64,000 nt of DNA from Halichondria panicea. Taxonomy: Eukaryota > Porifera > Demospongiae > Suberitida > Halichondriidae. Below are positions 38,680-44,930 of this stretch, piece by piece (position 1 is the stretch's first letter; each line of letters begins with the position of its first letter). A program made the translations under genes and the position numbers. Where the stretch lies: NCBI RefSeq assembly GCF_963675165.1, contig NC_087391.1, positions 230,001 through 294,000 on the forward strand, read 5' to 3'. Below the pieces are notes generated by a model. That model was not told the DNA's origin and searched no databases. It saw only the letters and a program-made list of their open reading frames with translations.

Positions 38680-39500
38680 ATGTCTGATAGCAGTCTCTCC
38701 ACCCCTCTCGATCTCCTCAGTACTCCCCCCAGGAGCAGGTCTAACAGACCCCCCGGCCCTGTGGATGCAGCCAAGCAAAGGAACCCACTGGAGGAGGGGG
38801 AGGGGGAGAGGGAAAAGGTTCGATGGAATCCATTAACATGGGTACAAAGTTTGTCCACTTCAGCAACTGAGATTAGAGGTATGTTATAACCTCCCCTCTG
38901 GTTATGTAGCAATGGGTTATGTCTATCGCTCCACAGGTCGTGCTTACTGGGAGGGCCTGTCACAAGATGACAAGAGAAAGCAATACACATGCAGTCGCTA
39001 CGTTACTCTTGAGGACATTAAATCATGGCAGCAACAACTGGACATACAAGGTACATTGGATGGTGAATTTAGGCTGTTAGCTCGACTGTCCATAACTTTA
39101 TTTTGAAAGGCCATTTAATGATGTGTTTAGGACCAGTGATCACTTATTTATTAATTGTCTTATACTTAAAAGCTTGGGCTATAATACTCTTCTCCATTAT
39201 TGCAGTTACACTGAGAGGCCCCGCCCGCTTTGCTCCTGACTCCACCCTCAATAGCAAGGTCTCCTTGTGGCGAGGAGATATTACTAGTCTAGAGATTGAT
39301 GCTATAGTGAATGCTGCAAACTCCTCCCTCATGGGAAGGGGAGATGTGGACAGGGCCATCCATAGAGCAGCCTCAGGGTCATTGAAGACAGAGTATCGCA
39401 GCTTGGGGAGAGGCAGAGCAGGGGAGACCAAGATCACTGGAGGGCATAGGTTGCCAGCAAAGTGTAAGCTACTGTTGTTATGTGTGTGTGTCTAGAATGC

Positions 39501-39556
<56 letters not shown>

Positions 39557-40391
39557 AGATATCCTCCGCACTGTGGGCCCCACAAACAGGAGCAGAGAGA
39601 CACTCACGAACTGTTACACGTCTTGTTTTCATCTGGTGAAACAGAAACAGATAAAATCAGTGGTAAGTGGTAGACATTTTTATCTTAATTAGTGTATATG
39701 TAATTACTTTATTCTATTCGCAGGCATTTTGTTGCATAGCCACTACAGTCTGTGGTAAGCTGTGTGTGTGTGTGTGCGTGTGTGTGTGTGTGTGGGTGTG
39801 TGTGTGGGTGTGGGGGTGTGGGTGTGTGTGTGGGTGTGTGTGTGGGTGTTGTAGGTGTGTGTACATGTATATTGTGTGTAGGGTATCCTAACGAGGAGGC
39901 TGCCCATGTTGCCCTGGCAACGACGAGAGAATGGCTAGTACATAATGCTGACAAGGTGAGAGCTCTATTGACTATACATAGTTGGTTGCTATGGTGATGG
40001 TACACAGGTGGATCGAGTCATCTTCTGTGTTTTCCTAGAGGTAGACTACAGGATATATAGCAGGCTACTTCATGATTACTTCCCACGAGAACAACTGGAG
40101 GCAGCAAATGAGGAATTTAGTGTTGAGGAGGCAGCAAACAATGAAATGGATGACCCTTGGCCTCCACCACTGTTTCGCAGTATAACTGAACCTCCTACAG
40201 GTGGGTTGGTTGGATTTATCCTCCCTCCATGCTATTACTCCCTTCCTCTGTTCGTAGGAACTCAGCCGATGATCGCGAAAGAGACCAGTGTGGACTCCCC
40301 TCAGCCAATGGACACCCTCAATAGTGACCCCACCCCTGATCCGACCTCTTACCCCACCCCTGATCCTACAGATGACATGGGTACATATTAG
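38680..40391 (+). CDS. MacroD-type ADP-ribose-binding protein, copy A (altered binding loops)
   Basis: Eight exons (38680-38878, 38937-39050, 39206-39463, 39559-39662, 39724-39754, 39882-39955, 40008-40200, 40258-40391) sum to 1107 nt, or 368 aa. The architecture matches MACROD1/2: a basic N-terminus, a helix ([20 protein letters not shown]), and a macro domain ([28 protein letters not shown]-like [24 protein letters not shown]). Related enzymes remove mono-ADP-ribose from proteins and hydrolyse O-acetyl-ADP-ribose. Here the glycine loop reads MGRGDVDRAIH instead of [10 protein letters not shown], and the second loop reads IATTVCGYPNE instead of IATGVYGYPNE. The asparagine and aspartate usually called catalytic remain. 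Weak or lost activity is inferred. The 57-nt intron 7 is in frame and stop-free. Confidence 0.9.
39496..39558 (+). repeat. (TG)n microsatellite forming MacroD-A intron 3
   Basis: Intron 3 (39464-39558) is mostly TG repeat and ends GTGTACAG, the exon 4 acceptor. The equivalent intron in copy B has a shorter tract just before its GTGTACAG at 44037, plus a separate TG tract at 43853-43916. Confidence 0.9.
40201..40257 (+). other. 57-nt in-frame, stop-free intron (possible exitron) of MacroD-A
   Basis: The sequence is bounded by ACAG|GTGGGT and TTCGTAG. Its length is divisible by three and it has no stop in the reading frame. If retained it adds 19 mostly hydrophobic residues ([18 protein letters not shown] core) to the acidic C-terminal tail. 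The counterpart at 44734-44790 in copy B has the same length and property. Confidence 0.75.
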
Positions 40392-40447
40392 TGGTTGTTC
40401 CCCAGTTAGTGGGCAGATCAAAGCAATTCCGTGCTCTGTTTATTATA

Positions 40448-40705
40448 CATCACTACCGTAGCAATATACCAGGACCAATCAGAAGAGTTTAACGTCAAAC
40501 TCTTCTGATTGGTCAAGTTTTTCTCTAATAGTAGATATGTGTTCATTAGTTTTGCTGAATTCCATAGTTTTGCTTCCCATAACTATATAGGAGCCAATTG
40601 AGTTATTGGGTGGGCTAGTGGGCTAAAACAAAAACAAGATTTCATCCACTGAATTTTCACAGTGCAACATGCCCTATGTTTTGGTATATTGCTACGGTAG
40701 TGATG
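40448..40705. mobile_element. 258-bp MITE with perfect 23-bp terminal inverted repeats
   Basis: The left end, 40448-40470 (CATCACTACCGTAGCAATAT then ACC), is the exact complement of the right end, 40683-40705. Just inside the left end is an 18-bp perfect hairpin (40473-40490 with 40497-40514), of which GACCAATCAGAAGAG and its complement are part, with a 6-nt loop. No coding sequence. Confidence 0.85.
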
Positions 40706-42717: not shown

Positions 42718-42885
42718 TTATTTGTTTGTGCCTTTGTTTGTTTGTTTATTTGTTACTTCCTCTGATTTTTATGCATAATTATAAGGAAAAGGGTCAACTA
42801 TCAATCTACAAATCGCTCGCCCTTTACCAACTAGAGCACAACGATGAGTCAGTGTTGGAGAACCTGTTGTGTGCTCAGGTGTTTC

Positions 42886-43883
42886 ATGTCTGATAACAGT
42901 AGTCCTAGTCCGTCGTCCACCACCCCTCTCCTCGTCAGTACTCCCCCCAGGAGCAGGTCTAACACACCCCCCGGCCCTGTGGATGCATCCAAGCAAAGAG
43001 ACGTACTGGAGGGGGAGGGGGAGGGGGAGAAGTGTCCATGGACATTAATAACATTGGCAGCACGTCCAATATCGTGGGTACGAAGTTTGTTCACTTCAGC
43101 AACTGAGGTTAGAGGTACTTCAGCAACTGAGGTTAGAGGTACTTCAGCAACTGAGGTTAGAGGTACGTTATAACCCCCCTCTGGTTATGTAGCAATGAGT
43201 TATGTCTATCGCTCCACAGATCGTGCTTACTGGGAGGGCCTGTTACAAGATGACAAGAGAAAGCAATACACATGCCGTGGTTACGTTACTCTTGAGGACA
43301 TTACACCGTGGCAGCAACAACTGGACATACAAGGTATTTAACTTTGGGTCACCATAATAATTGTACCTTGCTGACTTGAGGCTGTGTGGTAGCTGCTAGC
43401 TTTGACTACCCATAACTTTCAGTTTCACAATAAAATATTGCGTTTTATAGCCGTTTTAAACGCCTATCAATGATTACTTTCATCATTATCAGTGATTACG
43501 TTCTGATTGAAATGTACAAAAATCATGTAAATAAAGTAAACAAAAGCTTGGGCTATAATATTTCTCTCCATTATTGCAGTTACACTGAGAGGCCCCTCCC
43601 GCTTTGCTCCTGACTCCACCCTCAATAGCAAGGTCTCCTTGTGGCGAGGAGACATTACTAGTCTAGAGATTGGTGCTATAGTGAATGCTGCAAACTCCTC
43701 CCTCATGGGAGGGGGCGGTGTGGATGGGGCCATTCATAGAGCAGCCTCCGGGTCATTGAAGACAGAGTGTCGCAGTCTAAGGGGAGGCAGAGCAGGGGAG
43801 ACCAAGATCACTGGAGGGCATAGGTTGCCAGCTCAGTGTAAGCTACTGTTGTACGTGTGTGTGTGTGTGTGTGTGCGTGTGTG

Positions 43884-43916
<33 letters not shown>

Positions 43917-44930
43917 ATTTGGTATAAAATTGGGCACACCCTCCCAATCAAATTGAAAAGCTTCTAATTATTTACGATCGTTGGAATCCAGCCTTCATTG
44001 CTGTGTCTCTATAATGCTTGTGTGTGTGTGTGTACAGATATCCTCCACACTGTTGGCCCCACGAACAGGAGCAGAGAGACACTCACGAACTGTTACACGT
44101 CTTGTTTTCATCTGGTGAAACAGAAACAGATCAAATCAGTGGTAAGTGGTAGACATTCTTCAGTGTACATGTAATCACCTCATTCTGTTGACAGGCATTT
44201 TGTTGCATAGCCACTGGAGTCTATGGTAAGCTGCCATGTTGTGTGGGGGTGGAGGTGTGTGTGGTGTGGGTGTGGGTGTGTGTGGTGTGGGTGTGTGTGT
44301 GTGTGGGTGGGTGGTGTGTGTGGGTGGTGTGTGTATACATGTATATTGTGTGTAGGGTATCCTAACGAGGATGCTGCCCATGTTGCCCTGGCAACAACGA
44401 GAGAATGGCTAGTACATAATGCTGACAAGGTGAGAGCTATATTGACTATACAGAGTGTTGGTTGCTATGGTGATGGTACACAGGTGGATCGAGTCATCTT
44501 CTGTGTTTTCCTAGAGGTAGACTACAGGATATATAGCAGGCTACTTCATGATTACTTCCCACGAGAACAACTGGAGGCAGCAAATGAGGAATCTAGTGTT
44601 GATGAGGTAGCAATTGAAGAGGCTGATTTTGAGGAGGCAGCAAAGAAAGAGGCTGGTGTTGTGGTGGCAGCAAACAATGAAATGGATGACCCTTGGCCTC
44701 CACCACTGAATCGCAGTATAACTGAACCTACAGGTGGGTTGGTTGTGTTTATCCTCCCTCCATGCTATTACTCCCTTCCTCTGTTCGTAGGAACTCAGTC
44801 GATGATCACGAAGGAGACCAGTGTGGACTCCCCTCAGCCAATGGACACTCGCAACAGTTGCCCCACCCCTGATCCGACCTCTGACCCCACCCCTGATCCT
44901 AAAAAGCAGAGGACTGATCAGACTGACTAA
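42886..44930 (+). CDS. MacroD-type ADP-ribosyl hydrolase, copy B (canonical loops)
   Basis: Eight exons (42886-43114, 43220-43333, 43580-43837, 44038-44141, 44195-44225, 44356-44429, 44484-44733, 44791-44930) sum to 1200 nt, or 399 aa with the first of three tandem donors; the other two give 407 or 415 aa. The substrate loops are intact: [20 protein letters not shown] and [12 protein letters not shown]. One deviation from copy A is [10 protein letters not shown] in place of EIDAIVNAAN. The tail is longer and more acidic than in copy A (an extra [20 protein letters not shown] stretch) and ends in [10 protein letters not shown]. In relatives, MACROD1/2 remove ADP-ribose from acidic side chains. 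An upstream in-frame Met at 42844 is possible; 42886 was chosen by alignment with copy A. Confidence 0.93.
43091..43162 (+). repeat. Three 24-bp tandem repeats creating three in-frame splice donors
   Basis: The unit ACTTCAGCAACTGAGGTTAG plus AGGT is repeated three times at the end of MacroD-B exon 1. Each copy ends AGAG|GTAC, giving donors at 43115, 43139 and 43163; the last has the best consensus (GTACGT). Each step adds exactly eight residues (TSATEVRG). Copy A has one unit. Confidence 0.88.
43853..43916 (+). repeat. (TG)n microsatellite in MacroD-B intron 3
   Basis: (TG)n with CG interruptions at the 5' part of intron 3. A second, short TG tract (44018-44033) precedes the exon 4 acceptor. 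Confidence 0.85.
44734..44790 (+). other. 57-nt in-frame, stop-free intron (possible exitron) of MacroD-B
   Basis: Same boundaries (GTGGGT...TTCGTAG), length and frame as the intron at 40201-40257. Retention adds a 19-residue hydrophobic stretch with core [18 protein letters not shown]. Only one or two bases differ from the copy A intron. Confidence 0.75.

Follow-up and report, generated by a model that had tools for sequence, protein, structure and literature searches.

An altered ADP-ribose pocket in one copy of a tandem MACROD1/2-type gene pair of the sponge Halichondria panicea

We analysed a window of 64,000 nucleotides from Halichondria panicea (contig NC_087391.1, positions 230,001 to 294,000; all coordinates below are those of the window) that carries a tandem pair of MACROD1/2-type genes, copy A (38680-40391) and copy B (42886-44930). 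Judging from their sequences, the two are a tandem duplicate of one gene for a predicted ADP-ribosylhydrolase. Copy B retains the canonical ligand loops, while copy A has lost five of their residues. We consider the case evenly balanced that copy A is a pseudoenzyme retained on account of its fold and tails, beside a copy B in the ancestral hydrolase role. According to this reading, three arginine or aspartate replacements in the catalytic loop, together with loss of a glycine and an aromatic residue from the diphosphate loop, would block the pocket of copy A, and the mapped residues suggest that such a protein would not hydrolyse ADP-ribose and would bind it poorly. A pseudoenzyme would be its most likely state because the pocket changed after the duplication without any interruption of the frame. 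A retained role might, speculatively, lie in partner binding or in competition with copy B, and copy A may, equally speculatively, be joined by splicing to two downstream Death exons.

An altered pocket in one copy of a duplicated gene is a familiar fate of duplicates, and the core finding is probably a fresh example of a known process, namely ordinary pseudoenzyme formation. Recurrent loss of macrodomain activity has been published for PARP14 and alphaviruses (PMC10221186). The inactive macrodomains of PARP9, PARP14, PARP15 and alphaviruses, as presented in sections of that paper, resemble copy A in having repeatedly lost catalytic loop residues while keeping the macro fold; they are domains inside larger proteins, however, whereas copy A belongs to a young tandem MACROD pair. 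A MACROD duplicate with this loop pattern was not found in the literature searched. With one pocket intact and one altered, such a pair would make the step from eraser to non-enzyme testable on natural proteins. The novel part would be a fusion of MacroD with two Death domains; were the Death exons spliced on, ADP-ribosylation would be tied to a death-fold signalling network.

Structure and identity of the gene pair

Both copies lie on the plus strand, and in each, eight exons separated by GT-AG introns assemble into an open frame. Copy A begins with an N-terminal tail (exon 1, 38680-38878), followed by the MACROD N-terminal extension (exon 2, 38937-39050), whose counterpart in copy B aligns to human MACROD1. 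Exon 3 (39206-39463) encodes the RGDIT and DAIVNAAN motifs and the altered catalytic loop, GRGDVDR. Beyond exon 4 (39559-39662), exon 5 (39724-39754) carries the altered diphosphate loop ATTVCG, which exon 6 (39882-39955) completes, and exons 7 (40008-40200) and 8 (40258-40391) follow. Exon 8 holds a phase-1 donor-like GT at 40381; the product up to this donor (38680-40380) has 365 residues, and the frame past 40380 reads on to a stop at 40389-40391. The product of copy B has 415 residues. Its exon 1 (42886-43162) holds a 24-nt tandem repeat, exon 2 spans 43220-43333, and exon 3 (43580-43837) combines the canonical loop GGGGVDG with the sequence GAIVNAAN (a D162G change). Exon 4 (44038-44141) precedes exon 5 (44195-44225) with the canonical ATGVYG, again completed by exon 6 (44356-44429), while exon 7 (44484-44733) holds a 30-nt repeat array and exon 8 (44791-44930) ends with the stop.

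The exons of the two copies are 85-98% identical over their aligned parts. Introns 1, 6 and 7 are ~96% and introns 3-5 82-91% identical, and intron 2 falls to 66% with large indels. An earlier note on this DNA had described two eight-exon MacroD genes that share nearly all coding and much intron sequence, with a full reading frame in copy A; the alignment bears out the first statement, and the open frame assembled across eight exons the second. Homology begins ~90 bases ahead of the copy A start and stops 12 coding bases short of its last donor-like GT, and the macro domains of the two copies are 93% identical. Copy B exon 3 has just two DNA matches in the 131.5-Mb genome, itself and copy A, in a search that skips common words.

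Both proteins pass the Pfam macro cut-off (2.8e-37 for copy B and 2.8e-30 for copy A, the latter queried as a joined copy A and Death protein). The closest solved relatives of copy B are human MACROD1 (1.7e-65, residues 93-312) and MACROD2, whose macro domains are 57-58% identical to its own, and its N-terminal extension can also be aligned to human MACROD1. Copy A differs from the human proteins by lacking three loop glycines as well as the glycine and the aromatic residue of the diphosphate loop. For comparison we used 135 relatives: 80 bacterial or archaeal stretches, the best among 585 that had been confirmed, and 55 loci from viral contigs. A tree built with 24 of the 80 bacterial loci, leaving out the other 56 and all 55 viral-contig loci, groups copies A and B with human MACROD1/2 (support 99/94), in a group that also takes in a MacroD-like gene on contig C8 of the sponge and one long-branch bacterial row. 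The terminal branches measure 0.057 for copy A and 0.009 for copy B.

The ligand pocket of copy A

Relative to GGGGVDG and ATGVYG in copy B, copy A carries G149R, G151D and G154R in the catalytic loop and G233T and Y235C in the diphosphate loop, exactly the changes that the earlier note had listed. The glycine-rich catalytic loop is thus broken in copy A and kept in copy B, and the G-x-Y/F pattern of the diphosphate loop reads TVC in copy A and GVY in copy B. The residues of copy A are rare at these positions: among the 135 relatives none has R at the first site or D at the second, two have R at the third, none of the 132 with a letter there has T at the fourth, and none of the 135 has C at the fifth. 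Since the patterns used to pick these relatives cover the catalytic loop and the DAIVNAAN motif, the conservation seen in those two places is biased upward. At 41 near-invariant sites (≥90% identical in the relatives), copy A alone departs at six, copy B alone at one and both at four.

By computed numbering, the G233 position of copy A corresponds to G270 of human MACROD1, and the G270E mutant is described, in passages of two papers, as a catalytic or catalytically inactive mutant (PMC5787345, PMC6582358). In OiMacroD, the structural account in PMC5413906 places the catalytic loop at G35-V39 and the diphosphate loop at residues 131-135. It names S130, G132, V133, Y134 and V39 as diphosphate contacts, G37, N30 and D40 as contacts to the distal ribose, and D16 and I17 as adenine contacts. 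On this map, a motif-based alignment renders the changes of copy A as G36R, G38D, G41R, G132T and Y134C.

Because G233T sits at the G270 position and the equivalents of the ligand contacts G132 and Y134 are lost, copy A is very likely no longer a hydrolase. Binding of ADP-ribose is probably poor as well, since the residues lost are those that hold the diphosphate itself. Of the suggestion that copy A is a reader or decoy rather than a hydrolase, the second half is therefore well supported by the mapped residues, and the loss of diphosphate-binding residues makes a reader less likely. Neofunctionalisation of copy A, which the note also suggested, may have occurred.

With MACROD2 as outgroup, eight macro-domain sites were assigned as changed in copy A. 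Five of them fall within 13 residues taken as loops (hypergeometric P 6e-5), a set that counts G154 as loop by choice; in the stricter set of 10 loop residues, as defined in the relevant part of PMC5413906, there are four (P 4e-4). Clustering of all 18 nucleotide differences in exon 3 was not significant (P 0.07).

Selection and competing readings of copy A

We compared the two copies by pairwise NG86 estimates of the ratio of nonsynonymous to synonymous divergence (dN/dS). Overall, the ratio is 0.58 without the four codons beyond the end of homology and 0.65 with them. The macro domain, where 13 changes are nonsynonymous and 13 synonymous, gives 0.29, the tail 0.97 (1.5 with the four codons) and the N-terminus 0.83 (1.6 once its first 11 codons, which align poorly, are left out). 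Given the macro-domain counts, a model with both copies neutral is rejected (P 0.003). Gaps in exons 1-7 measure 12, 21, 48, 3, 60 and 3 bases, all six being multiples of three, whereas none of the three gaps in introns 1, 4, 6 and 7 is (1, 8 and 2 bases, beside 15 substitutions over 219 sites). This tally leaves out introns 2, 3 and 5, which are rich in TG repeats or poorly alignable, and the 17-nt gap of exon 8, which lies beyond the end of homology. Because the frame is open, the indels of exons 1-7 come in threes and the macro-domain dN/dS is 0.29, the sequence makes an old pseudogene unlikely.

We then simulated neutral evolution starting from the copy A sequence in 3000 runs and counted a frame as surviving if it had gained neither a stop nor a frameshift. 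With 0.03 changes per site, 3.9% of frames survive at 0.08 indels per change and 0.7% at 0.15; at 0.06 changes per site, survival is 11% without indels, 0.3% with 0.08 and 0.03% with 0.15.

Several observations weigh against a maintained pseudoenzyme. When indels are left out, the frame stays open in 31% of the neutral runs with 0.03 changes per site. A pairwise dN/dS is unable to assign the constraint to copy A, and neutrality of one copy alone is not rejected by the macro-domain counts (P 0.10 at a pairwise ratio of 0.55). The tail and the N-terminus evolve near neutrality. Relative rates lean towards copy A but are not clear-cut, at 6:2 (copy A to copy B) with MACROD1, 8:2 with MACROD2 and 8:1 with 5fsu as outgroup. 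Gene conversion could explain the kept frame; a genome search that skips common words found no DNA donor for conversion of exon 3. Finally, the equivalents of OiMacroD N30, G37 and D40 are still present in copy A.

Some of these observations would be expected of a young, functionless duplicate in decay, whose constraint was relaxed recently and which lost its pocket first and has not yet gained a stop. We regard this as quite possible. Synonymous divergence between the copies is just ~0.12, the ratios of tail and N-terminus are near neutral, the macro-domain counts fit one neutral copy, and several of the lost residues lie at otherwise invariant sites. Decay accounts less well for exon indels that are all in frame, given how few frames survive the simulation with indels included, and for changes of which five of eight sit in the ligand loops instead of being scattered across the domain.

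A further reading, compatible with a pseudoenzyme, concerns the region between the copies, which contains two Death exons on the plus strand that the earlier note does not mention. The first (41447-41781, phase 1 to 0, or starting at 41423 with an alternative in-phase acceptor) scores 17 bits with Pfam Death, below the cut-off of 22.6, and the second (42352-42717, stop at 42715-42717) matches it at 2.6e-8. The exon pair belongs to a very large family, with 706 first-look candidates genome-wide and at least 151 matches among the 150 candidates scored. At E 0.001 or better there are at least 148 Pfam Death matches in the genome (150 of 503 candidates scored), and the Death family of this genome is a very large expansion. 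Sponge expansions of Death-like and TRADD-N units have been described (PMC8195603) and, in the parts of that paper concerned, likewise comprise lineage-specific families, death-fold units and shuffled architectures. A MacroD-Death fusion is not described in those parts and was not found elsewhere in the literature searched; the fusion considered here is only predicted.

It is possible, and we put it forward tentatively, that a single gene comprises copy A and the two Death exons and encodes a MacroD-Death-Death adaptor, with a dead macro domain joined to a death-fold signalling module. Both candidate acceptors match the phase of the donor at 40381, and joining the exons gives a frame that runs uninterrupted to the stop, though a matching phase has a chance of one in three. 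The end of A/B homology lies 12 nt before this donor. The start of the first Death exon is common to its paralogues in the genome, and in the paralogue region L033 a first exon beginning MATTNF likewise ends in a phase-1 donor. The long Death exon of L033 continues with a motif that looks P-loop-like by eye, where Pfam names only Death. Neither the first exon nor the P-loop-like exon of the paralogues has a separate counterpart in the window: a query with the former recovers only the Death exon itself, and one with the latter gives no hit there. The first Death exon also appears constrained (dN/dS 0.26 against its nearest paralogue), whereas the second is less so (0.49-0.93 in nine comparisons).

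The splice sites speak against the fusion. The copy A donor scores 2.5 bits, compared with 3.0-10.5 for 15 donors of these genes, and the candidate acceptors score 1.3 and -0.9, compared with 5.2-8.7 for 13 of 15 acceptors and -0.6 for the other two. Nearby sites score as well in 23% of 750 GT and 24-40% of 672 AG dinucleotides. The Death region has a stand-alone open reading frame starting at an ATG at 41350, and the putative intron is filled by repeat-like stretches. One of these (40445-40708, 264 nt) has 27-nt inverted arms at its ends and, among the matches listed, no second copy in the genome; another (40726-41352) is an interspersed repeat with inverted ends, resembling a miniature inverted-repeat transposable element, for which at least 29 other places match at least 520 bases. 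Repeat matches for 40360-41460 come from 40 of 800 first-look candidates that were scored, and the 12 coding bases before the copy A donor have no other genomic match among those listed. In 14 Death-paralogue loci, these 12 bases gave only 12-base chance matches nearby. Queries with the Death exons against the macro-gene loci L001-L014 found no match except in L009, the window's own neighbourhood. We think rather unlikely the scenario in which a substrate-blind MACROD paralogue took two death-fold exons from the large Death family of the genome and became a MacroD-Death-Death adaptor, encoded next to an active sister gene, that connects ADP-ribose signalling with the assembly of death folds.

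Against a pseudoenzyme it may also be held that copy A has remained an active hydrolase or reads ADP-ribose well, which we find distinctly unlikely. By the motif-based alignment, copy A retains equivalents of D16, G35 and V39 in addition to N30, G37 and D40, and the single OiMacroD mutants N30A, G37V and D40A keep ~14-27% of catalytic efficiency, as computed from values given in PMC5413906. However, copy A combines G233T at the G270 position with Y235C, which removes a contact to both diphosphate and ribose, and with three loop residues turned charged, and none of the 135 relatives shares its R, D, T or C at the first two and last two of the altered sites. An assembly artefact with two haplotypes set side by side would agree with the high identity of several exons and introns, but is very improbable given the 66% identity and large indels of intron 2, the differing 3' ends and the ~2.5 kb with other elements that separate the copies on a 5.98-Mb contig.

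Copy B and neighbouring features

Copy B has one private change at a conserved site, D162G, which the earlier note does not list; here 76 of 80 bacterial and 50 of 55 viral-contig relatives have D. This residue is absent from the ligand contacts given in the structural part of PMC5413906. We had considered D162G as loss of the adenine-contact aspartate and dropped this, since that account puts the aspartate in the GDIT motif, which both copies keep. Copy B is predicted to be probably active, with removal of mono-ADP-ribose as the ancestral task, and the designation of active sister is plausible, although D162G calls for caution.

A third, divergent MacroD-like gene lies at locus L011 (C8:1338000-1347000, macro exons 3878-5426), with the loop AGKGVNG and no GDIT motif. 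The idea that copy B is the sole canonical MacroD of the genome, prompted by this loop, was abandoned, as the 5fsz macrodomain likewise carries K in place of that glycine; a passage of Rack et al. (PMC7050489) on viral MacroDs that are active although they lack the aspartate counts against it as well.

Upstream of copy A and divergent from it, a PPPDE (Peptidase_C97, DeSI-like) gene occupies 38000-38559 on the minus strand. The gap between the two is ~120 bases, ~90 of which have homologous sequence in front of copy B. Just 3' of copy B, a 56-base tandem repeat spans 45384-45695 (5.6 copies, 97% matches). In the paralogue locus L032, ~1 kb separates a NACHT-LRR (NLR-like) open frame (L032:2262-4805) from a Death-like exon (L032:5774-6088) only distantly similar to the first Death exon (34% identity). 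Other reading frames in the window encode an SH3-kinase (31879-32868), GINS PSF1 (57507-58082) and a leucine-rich-repeat protein (4712-5947).

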